64,000 nucleotides of DNA, taken from the NCBI RefSeq assembly GCF_002159915.1, contig NZ_NFJP01000004.1, positions 1 through 64,000 on the forward strand. The letters run 5' to 3'. The notes beneath the pieces are model-generated. The model searched no databases, was not told where the DNA came from, and saw only the letters and a list, made by a program, of their open reading frames with translations. The translations under genes and the position numbers were made by a program. Position 1 is the first letter of the stretch, and every line of letters begins with the position of its first letter. Positions 16,795-27,643 of the stretch are shown in pieces. Source of the DNA: Gordonibacter sp. An230. GTDB lineage: Bacteria > Actinomycetota > Coriobacteriia > Coriobacteriales > Eggerthellaceae.

Positions 16795-18717
16795 CTACTT
16801 CTTCACGTTCATCGCCCTCATGGCGTTCAAGATGGCGATCACGGCCACGCCCACGTCGGCGAACACAGCGAGCCACATGTTCGCGATGCCCACCGCCGCC
16901 AGGATCAGCACGAGGAACTTCACGCCGAGGGCGAACACGATGTTCTGCCACACGATGCCCATGGTTTTGCGGGCGATGCCGATCGCCCGCGCGATGTTGG
17001 ACGGCTTGTCGTCCATGAGCACCACGTCGGCCGCCTCGATGGCCGCGTCCGAGCCCATCGCGCCCATGGCGATGCCGATGTCGGCGCGGGTGAGCACTGG
17101 GGCGTCGTTGATGCCGTCGCCCACGAAGGCCAGCTTGCCCTTGCCGGTTCCGTGCGCATGCGTCTCCTCGAGCAGCTTCTCCACTTCCGCGACCTTGTCT
17201 TGGGGCAGAAGCTGCGTGCGGAACTCGTTGATGCCCAGCTCCTTCGCCACGGCTGCGGCCACGTCGGCGCGGTCGCCCGTCAGCATGACGGTCTTCTTCA
17301 CGCCGGCCGCGCGCAAGGCGGCGACGGCTTCGGCCGCGTCGGGCTTGATGACGTCGGCGATGACGATGTGGCCGATGTACTCGCCGTCCAGCGACACGTG
17401 CAGGATGGTGCCGGTCAGCTCGCAGTCGCGGCAGTCCACGCCGCACGCGCTCATGAGCTTGTCGTTGCCCACGTACACCACGTGCTCGTCGATGCGCGCC
17501 CGCACGCCGTGGCCGCTCTGCTCCTGCACGTCGTCGATGCGCTGCTGGTCGATGGGCCCCGAGTAGGCCGCGCGCACCGACAGCGCGATCGGATGGTTCG
17601 AGTACGCCTCGGCGTGCGCCGCGATGGACAGCAGCCGGTCGGGGTCGATGCCGGAGGCGGGGTGCACGGCCACCACGTTGAACGAGCCGTCGGTGAGCGT
17701 GCCGGTCTTGTCGAACACGACGGTCTCGGCTCGGCTCAGCGTCTCCAGGTAGTTGCTGCCCTTCACGAGGATGCCGAGGCGCGAGGCGCCGCCGATGCCG
17801 CCGAAGAACGACAGGGGCACGCTGATGACGAGCGCGCAGGGGCACGACACCACGAGGAAGATCAGCCCGCGCTGCACCCAGTCGGACCAGCCGCCGCCCA
17901 GCAGAAGCGGCGGCATGATGGCCAAGAGCGCCGCGATGCCGACGACCGCCGGGGTGTAGTAGCGCGCGAAGCGGGTGATGAAGTTCTCGGTCTTGGCCTT
18001 CTTCTCGGCCGCGTTCTCCACGAGCTCGAGGATGCGGCTCACGGTGGACTCGCGATAAGGCTTGGTCACGCGCACGGTGATGAGGCCGCTCATGTTGACG
18101 CAGCCCGAGATGATCTCGTCGCCCTCGCGCACCTCGCGCGGCACCGACTCGCCGGTGAGGGCCGCGGTGTCCAGCTGCGAGGAGCCGCGCACCACCACGC
18201 CGTCGAGCGGCACGCGCTCGCCGGCTTTGACGACGATCTCGTCGCCCACGGCCACCTCGTAGGGGTCGACCTGCACGAGCCGCCCGTCGCGCTCCACGTT
18301 GGCGAAATCGGGCGCGATGTCCATCATGTCGGCGATCGACTTGCGCGATTTGCCCACGGCGTAGCTTTGGAACAGCTCGCCCACCTGGTAGAACAGCATG
18401 ACGGCCGCGCCTTCGGCCATGTGCGGGTCGCTGTCGGGGAACAGCACCAGCGCGAACGCGCCGATGGTGGCCACGCTCATGAGGAAGTTCTCGTCGAACA
18501 CCTGGCCGTGGCCGATGTTCTTCGCCGCGCGCAAAAGCACGTCGTAGCCGGCGATGAGGTAGGGGACGAGGAAGAGCGCGAACTCCACCCAGAGCGCGGC
18601 TGTCTCGCTTCCGAGCCACGTGGCGAGCGGCATGAGCTCGGCGATCACGTAGACGACGGCGAACAGCGCGATGGCGAGGACGATGCGGTTCCTCGTTCGT
18701 TTCTGTTTCTTGTTCAT
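16795..18717 (-). CDS. P1B-2-type heavy-metal ATPase (Zn/Cd/Pb exporter)
   Basis: Inner-membrane metal-exporting ATPase, 640 residues, no N-terminal metal-binding domain. It has TGES (LDTAALTGESVPREV), the metal site SCPCALVISVP, DKTGTLTDG, GDGINDAPVL, and in the last helices a conserved Lys (ALGVKFLVLIL) and DVG (VFADVGVAV), the P1B-2 signature for divalent Zn/Cd. ATG 18780 would encode MFHVKH, but that is simply the parS site translated, so ATG 18717 (MNKKQKRTRNR) is preferred; its ribosome site is weak. Last gene of arsR-HMA-ATPase; the small HMA protein may take the place of the missing domain. Confidence 0.9.
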   Translation of the reverse strand: MNKKQKRTRNRIVLAIALFAVVYVIAELMPLATWLGSETAALWVEFALFLVPYLIAGYDVLLRAAKNIGHGQVFDENFLMSVATIGAFALVLFPDSDPHMAEGAAVMLFYQVGELFQSYAVGKSRKSIADMMDIAPDFANVERDGRLVQVDPYEVAVGDEIVVKAGERVPLDGVVVRGSSQLDTAALTGESVPREVREGDEIISGCVNMSGLITVRVTKPYRESTVSRILELVENAAEKKAKTENFITRFARYYTPAVVGIAALLAIMPPLLLGGGWSDWVQRGLIFLVVSCPCALVISVPLSFFGGIGGASRLGILVKGSNYLETLSRAETVVFDKTGTLTDGSFNVVAVHPASGIDPDRLLSIAAHAEAYSNHPIALSVRAAYSGPIDQQRIDDVQEQSGHGVRARIDEHVVYVGNDKLMSACGVDCRDCELTGTILHVSLDGEYIGHIVIADVIKPDAAEAVAALRAAGVKKTVMLTGDRADVAAAVAKELGINEFRTQLLPQDKVAEVEKLLEETHAHGTGKGKLAFVGDGINDAPVLTRADIGIAMGAMGSDAAIEAADVVLMDDKPSNIARAIGIARKTMGIVWQNIVFALGVKFLVLILAAVGIANMWLAVFADVGVAVIAILNAMRAMNVKK

Positions 18718-18763
18718 CGATTTCAACTTTCGGTTCGATCGAGGGCGCGGAACGCCGCCGGAG

Positions 18764-18779
18764 TGTTTCACGTGAAACA
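18764..18779. promoter_or_regulatory. parS site (ParB binding), copy 1
   Basis: TGTTTCACGTGAAACA, the perfect 16-base palindrome bound by chromosomal ParB/Spo0J. It lies in the short gap between the small HMA gene and the metal ATPase. Confidence 0.85.
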
Positions 18780-18841
18780 TCCGTTCGTGAAAAGTGCGGC
18801 GAGCGCGCTCGTGCGCAGGCGCCCCCTCGATGGTCGGTGGG

Positions 18842-19060
18842 TTAACGCAGGATGACGCAATCCGGCTCGATCTTCGAGCAGGCGCGCTGCGCTTCGTCGA
18901 GCACGGCGTCGAAACAGTCGTCGTCGGCCTCGATCACGAGCTTCTGCGTCATGAAGCTGACCGTGGCGCTTTTCACGCCGTCGATGCCCTTGATGGCGTT
19001 CTCCATCTTCGCGGCGCAATTCGCGCAATCGAGGTCCTGGAGTTTGAAAGCCTTGCGCAT
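18842..19060 (-). CDS. Small HMA-domain metal-binding protein
   Basis: A 72-residue protein of the ferredoxin-like HMA fold, with the metal-binding loop LDCANCAAKMENAI (CxxC) and GIDGVKSATVSFMTQKLVIE. Such proteins carry soft metal ions to an exporter. ATG 19060 is preceded by GAAAGGAAG. It sits between arsR and the metal ATPase, which lacks its own N-terminal HMA domain, so it may be a split-off domain or a chaperone. The acidic tail region ADDDCFDAVLDEAQRACSK has two more cysteines. Confidence 0.85.
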   Translation of the reverse strand: MRKAFKLQDLDCANCAAKMENAIKGIDGVKSATVSFMTQKLVIEADDDCFDAVLDEAQRACSKIEPDCVILR

Positions 19061-19120
19061 GGTTCTTCCTTTCACGTGCGCCGCTGCCGGCGCTCTCCTG
19101 TTTTCGTCTTCCGGGCGAGA

Positions 19121-20715: not shown

Positions 20716-21390
20716 TCAGCCCGTCGGCTCGGCTTCGAGGGCGGGCGAGTCAAGGTCGAGGAGCGTCGCGAAATCGCCGACGAGCCACAACGCGGCGCCG
20801 TCCGCGCTGAGTGCGAGCGGCATGCGGTCGTGCACCGGCGCGACGACCGTGGAAGGCTCGGTCGTCACGAGCGAAAAACGCCCCGCCTCGTGGATGCCCG
20901 CCAGAATAAGCGGCGTGCCGTCCGCGCGGGCAAAAGAGTAGAGGCGGCGCATGGGCTTTCCGGTGCGCGGGCTCGGCACCGTCTCGGTCGCATGGGACTC
21001 GAAGAAGCTCCAAGCCGGCACGAGGCAGCGACGGCGCTCGAGAGACACACGCCACATGTTCGAGGAGCTGCCGAGAGCCGTCTCTATGCGCGTGTTGAAC
21101 ACGACCCCTTTTTTCCAGGGGACTTGATATCCCCAGGTCATATCCGCGACGGCAAGCTGCGTTCCAAAGCCTGTCGGCACGATGAGCGTTACCACAGACG
21201 AAGGGAAAGCATCGTGTCGAGCCGACGGCCTGTACGAAGTCGGCTCAGACAGGCTCGCTTGGAAGTCGTCGAGAGCGTCAAGAGCGCCGAGCCCTTCGCA
21301 TGCGTCCCCGCGAGCTTCCAGCGCACGCGCGACTTCGGTCGCGACGCGCGCGACCTCGGCTCGGTCGACCGCGACGAAACGTCTGCACAC
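20716..21390 (-). CDS. SRAP (YedK/HMCES-like) abasic-site protein
   Basis: Forms a protein-DNA crosslink with abasic sites in single-stranded DNA. The 224-residue protein starts at GTG 21390, read as Met-Cys-Arg-Arg-Phe, so the catalytic Cys2 is exposed after Met removal; GGAAGGAT lies upstream. Other catalytic residues are present: Asn99 in FNTRIETA, Glu121 in SFFES, His177 in VHDRMP. The family's usual MCGRF is MCRRF here. The longer frame upstream of GTG must be ignored, since the cysteine has to be residue 2. Convergent with nothing nearby; divergent from csoR. Confidence 0.87.
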   Translation of the reverse strand: MCRRFVAVDRAEVARVATEVARALEARGDACEGLGALDALDDFQASLSEPTSYRPSARHDAFPSSVVTLIVPTGFGTQLAVADMTWGYQVPWKKGVVFNTRIETALGSSSNMWRVSLERRRCLVPAWSFFESHATETVPSPRTGKPMRRLYSFARADGTPLILAGIHEAGRFSLVTTEPSTVVAPVHDRMPLALSADGAALWLVGDFATLLDLDSPALEAEPTG

Positions 21391-21489
21391 AGCCAGATCC
21401 TTCCGACGATCCCTTTGCCTTTGGGCGCTGCATTGTACCATGAGCCCGATTCGCGCGCTGTCGATTTCCCTTTCGTTGATGAACGGTGC

Positions 21490-21517
21490 TTGACAATGCC
21501 CCGAGGGGGCATATACT
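21490..21517 (+). promoter_or_regulatory. Copper-operon promoter with CsoR operator 1 in its spacer
   Basis: TTGACA (21490-21495) and TATACT (21512-21517) are separated by 16 bases, and the palindrome ATGCCCC-GAG-GGGGCAT (21496-21512) fills that spacer exactly. GC-rich palindromes of this kind are typical CsoR sites. Confidence 0.85.
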
Positions 21518-21532
21518 GCCATTGACGGGAAC

Positions 21533-21551
21533 ATGCCCCGAGGGGGCATAT
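21533..21551 (+). promoter_or_regulatory. CsoR operator 2
   Basis: An identical 19-base copy, ATGCCCCGAGGGGGCATAT, 37 bases downstream of the first, between the promoter and csoR. A TTGACG at 21522-21527 lies ahead of it. Confidence 0.8.
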
Positions 21552-21573
21552 GGTATACAGGAGGACGATATCC

Positions 21574-21876
21574 ATGGAACAGCAAGGCTGCTGCCATCGC
21601 AAGGAGACGCCGCGCTCGGCTGCGCTGCAAGATGACCTGCAAAAGCGACTCAACCGAGTCATCGGCCAGCTGAACGGCGTGAAGGGCATGATCGAGGACA
21701 ACCGCTACTGCGGCGACGTCCTCGTGCAGCTCGCAGCCGCCGAAAGCGCCGTGCACCGCATCTCGGAGATCATGCTGCAAGACCACCTGGAAACCTGCGT
21801 AGTCGAGCAGATCCAGCGCGGCAACGTCGAGGTGGTCGACGAGGTCATGCAGCTCCTGCGGAAGTTCTCGCGCTGA
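21574..21876 (+). CDS. csoR: CsoR copper-sensing repressor
   Basis: An all-helical DUF156 repressor of 100 residues. The Cu(I) ligands fit exactly: Cys46, His71 and Cys75 have the same spacing as Cys36-His61-Cys65 of the Mycobacterium protein. LQKRLNRVIGQLNGVKGMIE is the family core. ATG 21574 follows CAGGAGGACGATATCC. Two identical GC-rich palindromes in front of it, one inside the promoter spacer, imply repression of itself and of the copper ATPase, released by Cu(I). The N-terminal GCCHRKE adds further possible metal ligands. Confidence 0.93.
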   Translation: MEQQGCCHRKETPRSAALQDDLQKRLNRVIGQLNGVKGMIEDNRYCGDVLVQLAAAESAVHRISEIMLQDHLETCVVEQIQRGNVEVVDEVMQLLRKFSR

Positions 21877-22007
21877 CTGCGCCCTGCGGTGCCGTAAGGC
21901 CCGCCCGCGTACAGCGCGGCCCAACAAGGCCCTCGCCCGCACGCGGGCGCGGGCAAAAGCTCCCATCGACGACGCCCGCCCAAGGCGGGGCGCGGAAAGG
22001 AACCCTT

Positions 22008-24629
22008 GTGAAGAGAACGTTCGACATCACGGGCATGACCTGCGCGGCGTGCTCGGCGCGCGTGGAGAAAGCGGCGCGCGGAGTGGACGGCGTGCGGGAC
22101 GTGGCCGTGAACCTGCTCAAAAACACCATGGAGGTCGATCTTGACGATGTCCCCGGAGCCGTGGACGCTGTCGAGCGCGCTGTGGAAAAAGCGGGCTACG
22201 GCGCGTTCGCACGGCCCGAACAGAAAAGTTCGGCATCGACGGGGCGCTCGGTGCAAACGCGTCCTGTGGCCGACGCTGCGGCCGAGGCCAAACGCGTGCG
22301 CACGCGCCTTATCGTGTCCGCCGTCTTCACCGTGCCTTTGTTCTACCTGTCCATGGGCCATATGTTCGGCTGGCCTTTGCCGGGCTTCTTCTTGGGCGAG
22401 GCGAACGTCATGCCCTTCGCCCTCACGCAGTTCCTGCTGCTTCTGCCCGTGGTCTTCGCGAACTTCAAGTCCTTCCGCGTGGGCTTCAAGACGCTCGCCC
22501 ACGGCGCGCCGAACATGGACTCGCTCATCGCGCTCGGGTCGGCGGCGTCGACGCTCTACGGCGTCTACGCGCTTTACAAGATAGGCTACGCGCTCGGCGC
22601 GGGCGACGTCCATGCCGCGCATACGGCCGCGATGGACCTCTACTTCGAATCGGCCGCCATGATCCTCACGCTCATCACGCTCGGCAAGTACTTCGAGGCG
22701 CGCGCGAAGGGCAAGACGACCGATGCCATCGCCAAGCTCATGGACCTCGCCCCCAAGGAGGCGACCCGCCTCGTCGAGGGCCGCGAGGAGCGCATCGGCA
22801 TCGACGAGGTGCGCGAGGGCGACATCCTCGCGGTGCGTGCCGGCGAGAGCGTGCCGGCGGACGGCACGCTCATCGAGGGCGCGGGAACCGTTGACGAATC
22901 GGTGGTGACCGGCGAGAGCGTGCCGGTGGACAAGCGTCCGGGCGACCGGGTGACGGGCGCCACCGTCAACCGCACGGGCTGGTTCGCCATGCGCGCCGAC
23001 CGCGTGGGGGACGACACGACGCTCGCCGGTATCATCCGCCTCGTCGACGAGGCCACCTCCACCAAAGCCCCGGTGGAGAAGCTCGCCGACCGCATATCGG
23101 GCGTGTTCGTACCCGCGGTCATCGCCGTCGCGCTCGTCACGTTCGCCGCATGGACGCTCGGCGCGGGCGCGTCGCTCGAAACGGCGCTCTCGCACGCCGT
23201 GAGCGTGCTCGTCATCTCATGTCCGTGCGCGCTCGGGCTGGCCACGCCCACCGCCATCATGGTGGGCACCGGGCGCGGGGCGCAAAGCGGCATCCTCGTG
23301 AAATCCGCCGAAGCCCTTGAGACCGCCCACGCCGTGAAGACCGTCGTGCTCGACAAGACGGGGACGGTGACCGAGGGCGCGCCGAGCGTGACCGACGTCG
23401 CCGCAGCTCCCGGCGTCGGCGAGGAACGCCTGCTCGAGGCCGCCGTGTCCATCGAAGGGAAGTCCGAGCATCCGCTCGCGCGCGCCGTCGTCGAGCACGC
23501 CCGCGCCCGAGGCGCGCACCCGCTCATCGTCGAGGGGTTCTCGCAGGTGCCGGGAGAGGGCGTTGAGGCGCTCGTGGACGACCGGCCCACCATCGCCGGC
23601 AACCTGCGCATGATGGAGGCGCGCGGAGTGGATGTGGGCGATCTTGCGCGAAGGGCGCGCCGCTTCGCCGACGAAGGCAAGACGCCGCTGTTCTTCGCGC
23701 AAGACGGCCAAGCGCTCGGCGTGATGGCCGTGGCGGACACCGTGAAGCCCACGAGCGCCGCCGCCTTGCGCGAGCTTTCCGCCATGGGCGTGCGCACGGT
23801 CATGCTCACCGGCGACAACGAGCGCACCGCCGCCGCCATCCAACGCGAGGTGGGGGCCGACGAGGTGGTGGCCGGTGTGCTTCCCGAAGGCAAGGAGCGC
23901 GAGATCCGCCGCCTGGCCGAGAAGGGGGCGGTGGCCATGGTGGGCGACGGCATCAACGACGCGCCCGCCCTCGCCCGCGCCGACGTCGGCATCGCCATCG
24001 GCGCGGGCACCGACATCGCCATCGAGAGCGCCGACGTCGTGCTCATGAGAAGCGACCTTATGGACGTGCCTGCCGCCGTCCAGCTTTCGCGCGCCACGAT
24101 GCGCACCATCAAGCAGAACCTGTTCTGGGCGCTCGTGTACAACGCCGTGTGCATCCCCGTGGCCGCCGGCGCGCTCTCAAGCTGGGGCGTGAACCTGAAC
24201 CCCATGATCGCCGCGGCGGCCATGAGCTTGAGCTCGGTGTGCGTAGTGGCCAACGCCCTGCGGCTGCGCGGATGGCGTCCCCGCTTCGCGGCGGGCGAGG
24301 GCGCCATCCGTCCCGTCGAGGGGCCGCGCTCTGCGGAAAGCGCGCCTCGCGGAGGGGGCGAAGCATCCGACGGAGCGGGAAGGGAAACGGAGAAGGGCGT
24401 GAAAACGCCGAAGGGAAAGGAGACGACCATGGAGAAGACCCTGCACGTGGAGGGCATGATGTGCCAGCATTGCGTCGCGCACGTGAAGAAGGCCCTCGAA
24501 GAGGTGGACGGCGTCGAAGAGGCGGTCGTGGACCTCGGCGCGGGCACCGCCACCGCGAAGATGAGCCGGGACGTGCCCGAAGAGACCCTTGTCGCCGCCA
24601 TCGCGGAGGCGGGCTATGCGGTGAAGTGA
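22008..24629 (+). CDS. copA: Cu(I)-exporting P1B-1 ATPase with HMA domains at both ends
   Basis: Exports Cu(I) across the membrane; 873 residues, longer than the usual 750-800. Order: HMA domain 1 (GMTCAACSARVEKAA), eight membrane helices, TGESVPVDK, metal site SCPCALGLATPTA, DKTGTVTEG, GDGINDAPALARA, and the P1B-1 signatures YNAVCIP and MSLSSVCVVANA. After a 50-residue hydrophilic linker comes a second HMA domain (GMMCQHCVAHVKKAL) at the very end. GTG 22008 follows GGAAAGGAACCC. An in-frame ATG at 24429 with its own AAAGGAG site could start a free CopZ-like chaperone. In one unit with csoR. Confidence 0.94.
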   Translation: MKRTFDITGMTCAACSARVEKAARGVDGVRDVAVNLLKNTMEVDLDDVPGAVDAVERAVEKAGYGAFARPEQKSSASTGRSVQTRPVADAAAEAKRVRTRLIVSAVFTVPLFYLSMGHMFGWPLPGFFLGEANVMPFALTQFLLLLPVVFANFKSFRVGFKTLAHGAPNMDSLIALGSAASTLYGVYALYKIGYALGAGDVHAAHTAAMDLYFESAAMILTLITLGKYFEARAKGKTTDAIAKLMDLAPKEATRLVEGREERIGIDEVREGDILAVRAGESVPADGTLIEGAGTVDESVVTGESVPVDKRPGDRVTGATVNRTGWFAMRADRVGDDTTLAGIIRLVDEATSTKAPVEKLADRISGVFVPAVIAVALVTFAAWTLGAGASLETALSHAVSVLVISCPCALGLATPTAIMVGTGRGAQSGILVKSAEALETAHAVKTVVLDKTGTVTEGAPSVTDVAAAPGVGEERLLEAAVSIEGKSEHPLARAVVEHARARGAHPLIVEGFSQVPGEGVEALVDDRPTIAGNLRMMEARGVDVGDLARRARRFADEGKTPLFFAQDGQALGVMAVADTVKPTSAAALRELSAMGVRTVMLTGDNERTAAAIQREVGADEVVAGVLPEGKEREIRRLAEKGAVAMVGDGINDAPALARADVGIAIGAGTDIAIESADVVLMRSDLMDVPAAVQLSRATMRTIKQNLFWALVYNAVCIPVAAGALSSWGVNLNPMIAAAAMSLSSVCVVANALRLRGWRPRFAAGEGAIRPVEGPRSAESAPRGGGEASDGAGRETEKGVKTPKGKETTMEKTLHVEGMMCQHCVAHVKKALEEVDGVEEAVVDLGAGTATAKMSRDVPEETLVAAIAEAGYAVK
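24416..24629 (+). CDS. Possible internally initiated CopZ-like chaperone
   Basis: Within copA, ATG 24429 in the same frame is preceded by AAAGGAG (24416-24422) at six bases. Translation from it would give a 66-residue HMA protein (METMEK-type start read as MEKTLHVEGMMCQHC) ending at the copA stop. The size and motif equal a stand-alone CopZ. This is a prediction, not an observed product; the feature span includes the ribosome site. Confidence 0.5.
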
Positions 24630-24713
24630 GCGCGGCGCGTCCTCGTCTTTGACTCGCGGCGGCCAAGACGCACAACGGCTTCGTGAGGCAGGAGCGCGAG
24701 GCGCCGCTCGACC

Positions 24714-24765
24714 AGGAGCGCCTTCCGGAACGCGAAGGCGCTCCTCGCAGAAACGAGCGTTTTTT
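24714..24765 (+). terminator. Terminator after the copper operon
   Basis: AGGAGCGCCTTC pairs with GAAGGCGCTCCT (24714-24745, 12-base stem, eight-base loop); a run of six T follows at 24760-24765 after an intervening stretch. The remaining convergent gap (24630-24952) holds no gene. Confidence 0.55.
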
Positions 24766-24952
24766 CTCGGCAAGCTTCGCGCTTCAGACGTCCGCGAGCG
24801 ACGAGGCGCTCGTGACGTTCGCCCAGGGTGCCACTACGAACGCGTTCGCGGCTCGCAGGGTTCAAACGCGCGACTTCTTCCGGGCGAGAATCGCAAAAGG
24901 ACGAGCATCGTTGCGGGAAAAGGATCGATGCGCGAGCTCAGAACGGGAATCC

Positions 24953-26083
24953 TCAGCAGCCTGTCACGATCTCGCGTAACGCGGCGATAAGCTTCTCGTT
25001 GTCCTCGCGTGTGCGGACGGCCACGCAGAAATAGCGTCCGTTTGAGAGTCCCGGCGTCCCCTCGAGCTTGCGGATGAGGAAGCCTGCCAGCCGCAGCCGC
25101 GCAGCCAGCTCCTCGACGCTGCGAACGCCCAGGGAGAGTTCCGGCCCTTCGTCGAACGAGCACATGACGTAGTTCGCCTCGGCAGGAAAGATATCGATGC
25201 CCGGAACGAGGTTCAGCATGCACTGCAGCCAGGGGATCTCGCTATCCAAAAACTCGCGCGTGCGCTCGAGGTGCTCCGCTTCGGACAGGGAGAGCTCGCC
25301 AAGAACCTCGGCGAACATGGGCACGCCAGAGCTGTCGTAGAAGCGCGCGATCTGCGCGATGGTGTCGGGATGCGCGATGCAGTAGCTGACGGGGACGCCC
25401 GGCATGGCGAACGGCTCGCAGAACGATCTCACGACTACGAGGTTGCGGTGCTCTGACACGAGGCCCGCCATGCTCTCGCCGCCCAATGTCAGCTCGATGG
25501 AGCGCTCGTCGACGACCACCCAGTTGCAAGCGTCCAGGTAGGCGCGCAAGGTGGGTTCGGGCAGGAGGCGGCTCGTCGGGTAGCCCGGGTTGGCCAGCAC
25601 GGCCGCGTCGAAGCGGGCTCCGCAGCGCTCCGCCGCCGTTGGATCGGGGACGACGAATCCGCCAGGACCCGCGATCTCCACGACGCGGTGTCCTGCGTTG
25701 CCGGCCGCCAGCGCGTATTCCGCCGGGCCCGGAACGGCCACGCCCACGGTGCAGGGCCGATAGGTCTGCGCGACGGCGCGCACCATGTCGCCCACGGTGG
25801 ATCCGACGAGAAAGGAGCCGACGGGAAGGCCGAACTTGCGCGCGAGCGCGCCGCGCAGCGCATGCGCCTCGCGATCAGGAGGGTAGTTCAGCTCGCCGGC
25901 GGCCAGAGCATCCTTCATGGCGCGTATGAACGACGGGGGAGTGCCGAGAGGGTTCGCAGTTCCCGAGAAATCGATCCAGTTCATTTCCGTGCGGAGCTCG
26001 TAAGGCGGCGGGAGCAGCTGCTCCGGCAAGGCGGTCACGCACTCGCGAACTCCGGACTGCGCATGGGTCGGATGCGGCGCCAT
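24953..26083 (-). CDS. Fold-type I aminotransferase-like protein lacking the PLP lysine
   Basis: A 376-residue protein with the layout of the HisC/CobD group: FSGTANPLG near residue 39, LANPGYPTS (Asn165), VVVDERS (Asp192). The segment that should carry the Schiff-base lysine reads VVRSFCEPFAMPGVPVSY (residues 217-234), where the family has a Lys (aligned with Glu223) and an Arg (aligned with Pro231). So the cofactor lysine and phosphate-binding arginine are both absent, although the frame is intact and the rest well kept. It may be a PLP-independent binding or regulatory protein. ATG 26083 has GAAAGGAGAGACG. Divergent from dinB. Confidence 0.8.
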   Translation of the reverse strand: MAPHPTHAQSGVRECVTALPEQLLPPPYELRTEMNWIDFSGTANPLGTPPSFIRAMKDALAAGELNYPPDREAHALRGALARKFGLPVGSFLVGSTVGDMVRAVAQTYRPCTVGVAVPGPAEYALAAGNAGHRVVEIAGPGGFVVPDPTAAERCGARFDAAVLANPGYPTSRLLPEPTLRAYLDACNWVVVDERSIELTLGGESMAGLVSEHRNLVVVRSFCEPFAMPGVPVSYCIAHPDTIAQIARFYDSSGVPMFAEVLGELSLSEAEHLERTREFLDSEIPWLQCMLNLVPGIDIFPAEANYVMCSFDEGPELSLGVRSVEELAARLRLAGFLIRKLEGTPGLSNGRYFCVAVRTREDNEKLIAALREIVTGC

Positions 26084-26247
26084 CGTCTCTCCTTTCGACG
26101 GTCCTTCGCGTGCCGCCGACGGGCATGCAGCGCAAGCCCGAGGGACGTTTCAGCCGGCTGTTGTCGTGCGGTCGCGCCCTCCTGCCCCCCGATGGGTCAA
26201 GGGATGAATATCCTAGCACAAATCGGCGACGCGCGGGCGCGGCGTGC

Positions 26248-26253
26248 TAGACT
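26248..26253 (+). promoter_or_regulatory. -10 element of the dinB promoter
   Basis: TGCTAGACT, an extended -10 (TAGACT), ends ten bases before ATG 26264, so the leader would be only a few bases long. Confidence 0.45.
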
Positions 26254-26263
26254 TATGCGCGAC

Positions 26264-27643
26264 ATGAGACGGGAATCCCCACATACCGCCAGCAAAGCGC
26301 CGGTCGGCCCAGAGGGCGGCTCGGCGCGCGAAGCCGTCGGCGCAGATGTCGCTGCATTCACTGAGCGAGGCGCTCTCCCGCTTCCGCCTTGGGAGGGTCC
26401 GGCCATCCTGCTCGTGGATCTCGATGCGTTCTTCGCCTCGGTCGAGCAGCTCGATCATCCCGCTTGGCGCGGCAAGCCCGTCATCGTGGGGGGCGATCCC
26501 GACAAGCGCGGGGTTGTGTCGACGGCATCTTACGAGGCGCGCCCTTACGGCGTGCGCAGCGCCATGCCCTCGTCCACCGCATACCGCCTGTGCCCCCACG
26601 CCATCTGGACGCGCGGGAGGTTCGACCGTTACCGCGAGATGTCGAACGCCATCATGGACATCCTGCGCGTTGAGACGCCGTACGTGCAGCAGGTGAGCAT
26701 CGACGAGGCGTTTCTGGATGTGTCGCCCACACCGGTGAACCGCGAGCACCCCGTGCGCGTCGCGCAGCGAGTCCAGCAGCGTATCGAGGAGATGGGCGTC
26801 ACGTGCTCCATCGGCGTGGGAACGTCGAAGACCATCGCGAAGATCGCCTCGGACATGGACAAGCCGCGCGGACTGACCGTGGTGTATCCGGGAGGAGAGC
26901 GGGACTTCCTCGCGCCCCTCCCCGTCCGCACGATGAGCGGCATCGGGGCCGCGGCCGAGGAGAAACTGCGCTCTTGCGGAATCCGCACGCTCGGCGAGCT
27001 CGCCGACGCGGACGAGGGCATGCTGTTGCGCGTCTTCGGCAAGAACGGCCATGTCATGCACGTGCGGGCGAACGGCGGAGACGACGCGCCCGTCGCGCAG
27101 GACGACTCGGTGAAGTCGGTGTCCAACGAGATGACGTTCGCAGTGGACCTCACCGAGCGCGAAGAGGTTGAGGGCGCCATCGCCACCATAGCGGCGAAGG
27201 TGGGGCGTCGCCTGCGCCGCAAGGGCCTGCGCGGCCGCACGATCAGCCTGCGTGTGCGCTACGACGACCGAAGCGTGCGGTCGGTGCAGCGTCAGCTGGC
27301 GACGCCCAGCGACGACGAATTCGCCTACACGCCGCTTCTGTACCGCATGATGGACGAGCTGTGGCGACCCGGCATGCCCGTGCGCCTCATCGGCGTGGGG
27401 ATGACGGGGTTCGAAGACGGCGAGGGTGTGCAGGAGAGCTTGTTCGACCTCGCTGAAGCCGCGCCGAGCGAGGACGACGTGCGGCCGTCCATCCCGGATG
27501 CACGCAAGCGCCGCGGCCTCATCGAGGCCACCGACCTCGTGAAGGACAAGTTCGGTGAGTCCGCCGTCCGCTTCGGACGCGAGCTTCGCGGCGAGGAGAA
27601 CACCACCGGATCCGCCAGCAAGAACCCGGCGGACTACAAATAG
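26264..27643 (+). CDS. dinB: DNA polymerase IV (Y-family)
   Basis: Error-prone translesion polymerase, 459 residues. The catalytic palm has ILLVDLDAFFASVEQ and VSIDEAFLDVS, the fingers have SYEARPYGVRSAMPS, and SIGVGTSKTIAKIASDMDKP is the classic IMS motif; the little finger follows. QESLFDL about 70 residues before the end is a sliding-clamp binding motif. The N-terminal extension of 45 residues before the palm is unusual. ATG 26264 is taken because the predicted transcript starts near 26260; ATG 26255 is in frame too. No ribosome site is seen, so near-leaderless initiation is likely. Confidence 0.93.
   Translation: MRRESPHTASKAPVGPEGGSAREAVGADVAAFTERGALPLPPWEGPAILLVDLDAFFASVEQLDHPAWRGKPVIVGGDPDKRGVVSTASYEARPYGVRSAMPSSTAYRLCPHAIWTRGRFDRYREMSNAIMDILRVETPYVQQVSIDEAFLDVSPTPVNREHPVRVAQRVQQRIEEMGVTCSIGVGTSKTIAKIASDMDKPRGLTVVYPGGERDFLAPLPVRTMSGIGAAAEEKLRSCGIRTLGELADADEGMLLRVFGKNGHVMHVRANGGDDAPVAQDDSVKSVSNEMTFAVDLTEREEVEGAIATIAAKVGRRLRRKGLRGRTISLRVRYDDRSVRSVQRQLATPSDDEFAYTPLLYRMMDELWRPGMPVRLIGVGMTGFEDGEGVQESLFDLAEAAPSEDDVRPSIPDARKRRGLIEATDLVKDKFGESAVRFGRELRGEENTTGSASKNPADYK

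Follow-up and report, generated by a model that had tools for sequence, protein, structure and literature searches.

In Escherichia coli, frameshifting in copA gives rise to CopA(Z), a 70-aa product, and a single copA gene thereby encodes both a pump and a free, small protein that binds copper (PMC5009743). In Shigella, Spa33-FL and Spa33-C are described as products of the same logic that we propose below for copA and copZ (PMC4832279), and in a CRISPR system Cas11b is made from cas8b by in-frame translation, an internal methionine of the large ORF starting a small functional protein (PMC11899642). Here we examined copA of Gordonibacter sp. An230 within a stretch of DNA of 64,000 nucleotides (the window) and compared it with copA genes of relatives. 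Judging from sequence comparison, copA in many gut-type bacteria appears to hold a second, internal start signal. The features to which the text refers are the following, in window coordinates.

21550..21876, + strand: CsoR-type metal-sensing repressor gene (PF02583, 93.3 bits)
22008..24629, + strand: copA, P1B-type copper ATPase of 873 aa with a GTG start and an HMA domain at both termini
24303..24428, + strand: low-complexity linker from the last ATPase segment to the C-terminal HMA (left edge approximate)
24416..24422, + strand: internal Shine-Dalgarno (SD) sequence AAAGGAG, duplex of -13.5 kcal/mol with the genome's 16S tail
24429..24431, + strand: internal start codon ATG, in frame with the 873-aa CopA ORF
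24429..24629, + strand: predicted free CopZ-like chaperone of 66 aa (MEKTLHVEGMMCQHC...), which is also the C-terminal domain of full CopA

The CopA translation was recognised by the copper-translocating ATPase model TIGR01511 (588.7 bits, cut-off 397), and its P-type ATPase core, matched by both PF00122 (E1-E2_ATPase) and PF00702 (Hydrolase), is of the copper type. It contains SCPCALG, DKTGT and GDGINDAPAL, which we take to be the motifs of P1B copper ATPases. Pfam detects two HMA stretches, one at the N-terminus (22017-22199) and a better-scoring one at residues 811-870, so that the extra C-terminal HMA domain claimed by the first-pass annotation of this DNA is indeed present. The CsoR-type repressor gene lies immediately 5' of copA.

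On the opposite strand, some 3 kb away from copA, a 661-aa ORF (16798-18780, - strand) encodes a second P-type ATPase, in which Pfam detects no HMA domain. It adjoins a 77-aa ORF (18845-19075, - strand) for a free HMA protein with a DLDCANC motif, and at this locus pump and metal-binding domain are thus separate genes. Closer to copA, an SRAP domain occupies only residues 240-397 of a 416-aa ORF (20716-21966, - strand). This ORF and the CsoR-like gene of the opposite strand overlap, and the true start of the former therefore probably lies far downstream. On the other side of copA, a 651-aa ORF (25688-27643, + strand) has a Y-family DNA polymerase (IMS) domain from residue 243, and the true start of this gene is probably internal.

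The first-pass annotation had pointed to AAAGGAG and an in-frame ATG right before the C-terminal HMA domain. Both are as described: a gap of 6 nt separates them, ATG 24429 is in frame with the CopA ORF, and 66 codons run from it to the TGA stop at 24627-24629. The 16S gene of this genome ends ...GGATCACCTCCTTTCT, a tail in which we assume the end point of the mature rRNA. With this 3' end, the SD duplex at ATG 24429 is stronger than that at copA's own GTG (-10.3 kcal/mol) and is the strongest among the 26 in-frame ATGs of the gene; it is equalled or exceeded at only 2 of the 862 other in-frame codons. Since ATG 23937 (-13.0) and GTG 23940 (-13.9, stronger than ATG 24429) have SDs of about the same strength, the window gene is not decisive by itself, and it is the comparison with relatives that decides.

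Taken alone, the 66-aa piece matches the Pfam HMA model over residues 4-63 (model positions 1-61 of 62; 63.0 bits, cut-off 24.8), and its residues 2-65 align with residues 3-67 of the copper chaperone CopZ chain 2qif (E 2.5e-9). AlphaFold2 gave a mean pLDDT of 94.8, with strands and helices in an HMA-like order. The piece unites an HMA domain with a GMxCxxC motif, reading EGMMCQHC, in the length of about 65-70 aa that characterises CopZ. All curated NCBIfam CopZ models score it below their cut-offs (the best, NF047957, at 69.5 against 85; NF033794 at 58.1 against 95; NF033795 at 57.5 against 91; TIGR00003 at 53.7 against 62), and we therefore call it CopZ-like and do not place it in those families; the same label, given in the first-pass annotation to a 66-residue protein, was aptly worded. 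An HMA search of the genome (assembly 96.66% complete) returned only two other matches, the 77-aa DLDCANC ORF and the C-terminal HMA of a 142-aa ORF, and hence no further stand-alone GMxCxxC protein was found in this assembly.

We propose that copA is translated in two ways, as the full pump with a tethered HMA and, from the internal start, as a free CopZ-like chaperone; on sequence evidence we regard this as highly probable. Ribosomes starting at GTG 22008 would make the full-length pump with its tethered C-terminal HMA, and others, recruited to the AAAGGAG within the linker, would initiate at ATG 24429 and give the free 66-residue chaperone. The pump or the CsoR-type repressor could then receive Cu(I) from the free domain. 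As set out below, the site combines an SD and an in-frame start inside a longer ORF with conservation in relatives, which strongly supports an internal start that is real and under selection.

To sample relatives, a 169-aa C-terminal query was compared with 296 genomes of the window's class, 272 of which matched. The better-scoring part of these matches forms the first set, 129 loci (L005-L133); L043 and L050 (short loci without an ATPase motif) and L134 (11 bases) are omitted. Of the 129 loci, 127 contain an ATPase motif; the ORF extends into a C-terminal HMA in 99 of these and lacks one in 28. As many as 98 of the 99 fused CopA genes examined in this class have an in-frame ATG 8-9 codons before GMxCxxC, and these 98 span 37 genera and two families. 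Start and strong SD (duplex of -8 kcal/mol or below) occur together in 97 of the 99; L056 has a weaker SD. The linker preceding this ATG is near saturation in sequence and differs widely in length between relatives: in first-set fusions, 28 to 123 codons lie between ATPase and ATG. When the set is anchored on the ATG with one row per genus, identity in the linker is 0.31, against 0.27 from composition, and 0.58 in the SD; since possession of the ATG was the criterion for these rows, its conservation is better judged from the count of 98 in 99.

The single first-set fusion without the ATG, L062 (genome G250), has the GM of its C-terminal HMA motif changed to EM, and directly behind copA lies a separate, intact-looking copZ with its own SD (AAGGAAGGGAACAGCAATG). 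A duplication or replacement of copZ may be in progress at this locus. At least 208 nt of downstream DNA were scanned with a wide motif that includes GMHC and GLHC forms; a separate copZ-like gene follows 23 of the 28 non-fused copA genes (L102-L106, L111, L116-L132) and 1 of the 99 fused ones, that of L062. Downstream motif matches at L019 and L060 were rejected as copZ because their sequences do not resemble HMA domains. No copZ-like gene was found within the scanned DNA behind the non-fused genes of L100, L101, L107, L113 and L133; in the case of L101, a stand-alone HMA gene (L345) is present at another place in the genome.

The same arrangement was found in a second sample, drawn separately from Clostridia, where a query from the CopA of [Ruminococcus] torques (L188) matched 267 of 291 genomes of its class. 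The better-scoring part of these matches gave 110 loci (L216-L325), namely 99 fused, 9 split and 2 unreadable; L246 and L292, in which no motif was found, are omitted, and L266 and L280 come from one genome. Among the 99 fusions examined, 92 have the ATG and two more a GTG (L239 and L245, with strong SDs), and in 91 the start is accompanied by a duplex of -8 or below. The ATG stands 6-12 codons before the motif, at 8 codons in 76 of the 91 genes counted; the two GTG genes and L311, a GMCC variant with an ATG and an SD of -9.0, lie outside these clostridial statistics (n=91). Weaker SDs were seen in 3 of the 91, one of which, L267, has the ATG and almost no SD. Identity, computed from rows with an ATG only, is 0.30 in the linker, against 0.28 from composition, and 0.55 in the SD. 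In all nine split loci, copZ lies just behind copA. A third sample, the named set of 80 loci (L144 and L174 gave no row), includes Pyramidobacter (L199) of the phylum Synergistota; 75 of the 80 are fused, all 75 with the ATG and 73 with an SD of -8 or stronger. The conservation of SD and ATG in relatives with the same fusion, which the first-pass annotation had proposed as a check, was thus observed in the window's class (98 of 99) and in Clostridia (92 ATG and 2 GTG of 99).

Conservation of this kind might be passive. The old copZ methionine could have been kept, with residues rich in Lys and Glu conserved for the protein and the SD an unused by-product. Since relatives with split copA and copZ have an SD and ATG at copZ, the site could simply be inherited; yet the linkers are near saturation and the ATG has been kept in all but one of the class fusions. 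The SDs were compared with synonymous shuffles of the same genes. With a 12-nt 16S tail, the SD energies of the internal ATGs average -10.9 in the 98 class genes and -10.1 in the 91 clostridial genes, compared with -3.2 and -3.4 at the other in-frame ATGs of these genes and with -7.95 and -6.5 in the shuffles. The excess over shuffles corresponds to Stouffer z values of 12.2 (class) and 12.6 (clostridial), the pooled p-values being inflated by the relatedness of the genes; by genus, means are stronger than shuffles in 34 of the 37 genera of the window's class. With a short anti-SD (ACCUCCUU), the 98 class genes show no excess over synonymous shuffles (z 0.9), as expected of a passive relic, and the clostridial excess persists (z 12.2). 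The real 16S tail was adopted after this null result and three tail lengths were then compared: the 16-nt tail gave an excess in both sets (z 10.7 in the class, 11.5 in Clostridia), and the clostridial excess holds with all three. That codon choice strengthens the SD as measured with the real tail argues against a passive relic.

The coding register of the SD bears on whether protein-level constraint could account for it. In keeping with such constraint, codons -4 and -3 of the first set most often encode K and E. However, the SD core occurs in registers 0, 2 and 1 in 71, 18 and 8 class genes (one without a core) and in 66, 2 and 21 clostridial genes (two without), encoding different peptides (KE, ERS, KGE and others), which indicates that nucleotides have been kept and not one peptide. 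Evidence from individual codons is mixed: at the SD codons, GAG is enriched in Clostridia (Fisher p 4e-6) but depleted in the window's class (p 2e-7), and for AAG neither set shows a significant change. Furthermore, other C-terminal HMA domains lack the methionine: among 18 proteins other than CopA that end in an HMA domain (L004, L326-L342), none has an ATG 5-13 codons before the motif. These proteins resemble one family and so represent one protein lineage rather than 18 independent cases. GTG or TTG occurs in this interval in 3 of the 18. For this negative control, L343 and L344 gave no qualifying ORF, and L003 and L345 (a 229-codon open frame), which have an ATG with an SD, were judged to be stand-alone HMA genes and left out. 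We consider it very unlikely that the site is a passive relic or a by-product of protein conservation. The control proteins represent a recurrent type present in several of these genomes, in which the C-terminal HMA follows a stretch rich in Cys and Gly and, in most cases, also a D(T/K)DE..YPY-like segment.

Ribosome pausing at SD-like sites has been proposed, raising the possibility that the element merely halts elongating ribosomes while the last membrane helices insert or fold ahead of the HMA, with no initiation taking place. The position of the site, downstream of the last membrane segment, would suit such a role. Pausing needs no ATG, however, and the SD tends to be missing where the start is missing. 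At the expected position, a start codon is missing from five of the 99 clostridial fusions (L268, L277, L283, L293, L322), and four of these, together with L062, have no comparable SD (none stronger than -4.1); L322 reaches -7.6. Moreover, the gap between SD and ATG falls in the range for initiation, 5-9 nt, in 93 of 98 class genes and 78 of 91 clostridial genes, and the mRNA around the ATG is open, with less folding than in synonymous versions for 43 of 49 class and 38 of 46 clostridial genes (every second gene tested). These observations make pausing without initiation very unlikely. The start-less clostridial cases are less neatly explained than L062: all five genomes have other small HMA ORFs, yet so do 16 of the 20 start-bearing genomes searched alongside. 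A separate copZ was therefore rejected as the explanation for every start-less fusion, being clear for L062 only.

Free CopZ might also be made from the same ATG by way of a separate short mRNA, transcribed from a promoter inside copA, and selection would then favour the SD and ATG equally. A search of 24100-25000 with a simple consensus, covering promoters of the sigma-70 type, found no sigma-70-like promoter, and in split relatives copZ lies close behind copA, in an operon-like order. Both points argue against this route, to which we give hardly any credence.

Internal initiation on the copA message remains our preferred reading, and the split relatives suggest how it may have arisen. The arrangement would derive from fusion of an ancestral copA-copZ operon in which the copZ start was retained by selection; such a history of fused operons with the copZ start kept, as in Shigella Spa33, is likely. 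A tree of fused and split forms (FastTree, 249 columns, weak support), from which the direction of change was not inferred, requires at least 8 changes of state. More broadly, we think it reasonably probable that a conserved internal start serves to make pump and free chaperone from fused copA genes of at least three phyla (represented by the window's class, Coriobacteriia, by Clostridia and by a single Synergistota genome, Pyramidobacter), fused and split states having interchanged repeatedly and the copZ start having rarely been lost. That the start would be rarely lost while the states interchange suggests that the free and tethered domains do distinct jobs, both of them needed, and their ratio would be set by the relative strength of initiation.

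If this proposal is correct, these genes are listed as a pump only by any gene finder that assigns one product per ORF, and in many bacteria a copper chaperone would go unnoticed. It also raises a testable question, what the tethered HMA does that the free HMA cannot, and suggests a rule for searches: fusions whose downstream partner must also act alone should retain an internal SD and start. Searches of the open-licence PMC literature gave no paper describing an internal CopZ start within copA; with that coverage, this is weak evidence of absence. Among described arrangements, the separate copA-copZ pairs of relatives (the 23 in the window's class, and L305, L309, L312, L315, L316, L319-L321 and L323 in Clostridia) serve the same two functions with copZ behind copA, and the 18 separate copZ starts have SDs as strong as the internal sites (mean -11.0); they differ in the stop codon between the genes, and hence make no pump with a tethered C-terminal HMA. 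Spa33 belongs to an unrelated family with an unrelated role, in the type III secretion C-ring (PMC4832279), and Cas11b is a subunit of a CRISPR complex in an archaeal system (PMC11899642). The contrast that the first-pass annotation drew with E. coli, where the chaperone is made by frameshifting at the other end of copA, agrees with the account of the 70-aa product in PMC5009743: there, a -1 programmed frameshift produces a short protein from the 5' end of the gene, whereas in the window copA the free domain is C-terminal and would arise by internal, SD-dependent initiation. Such initiation would be a third route to a pump and a free chaperone, beside separate genes and the E. coli frameshift.
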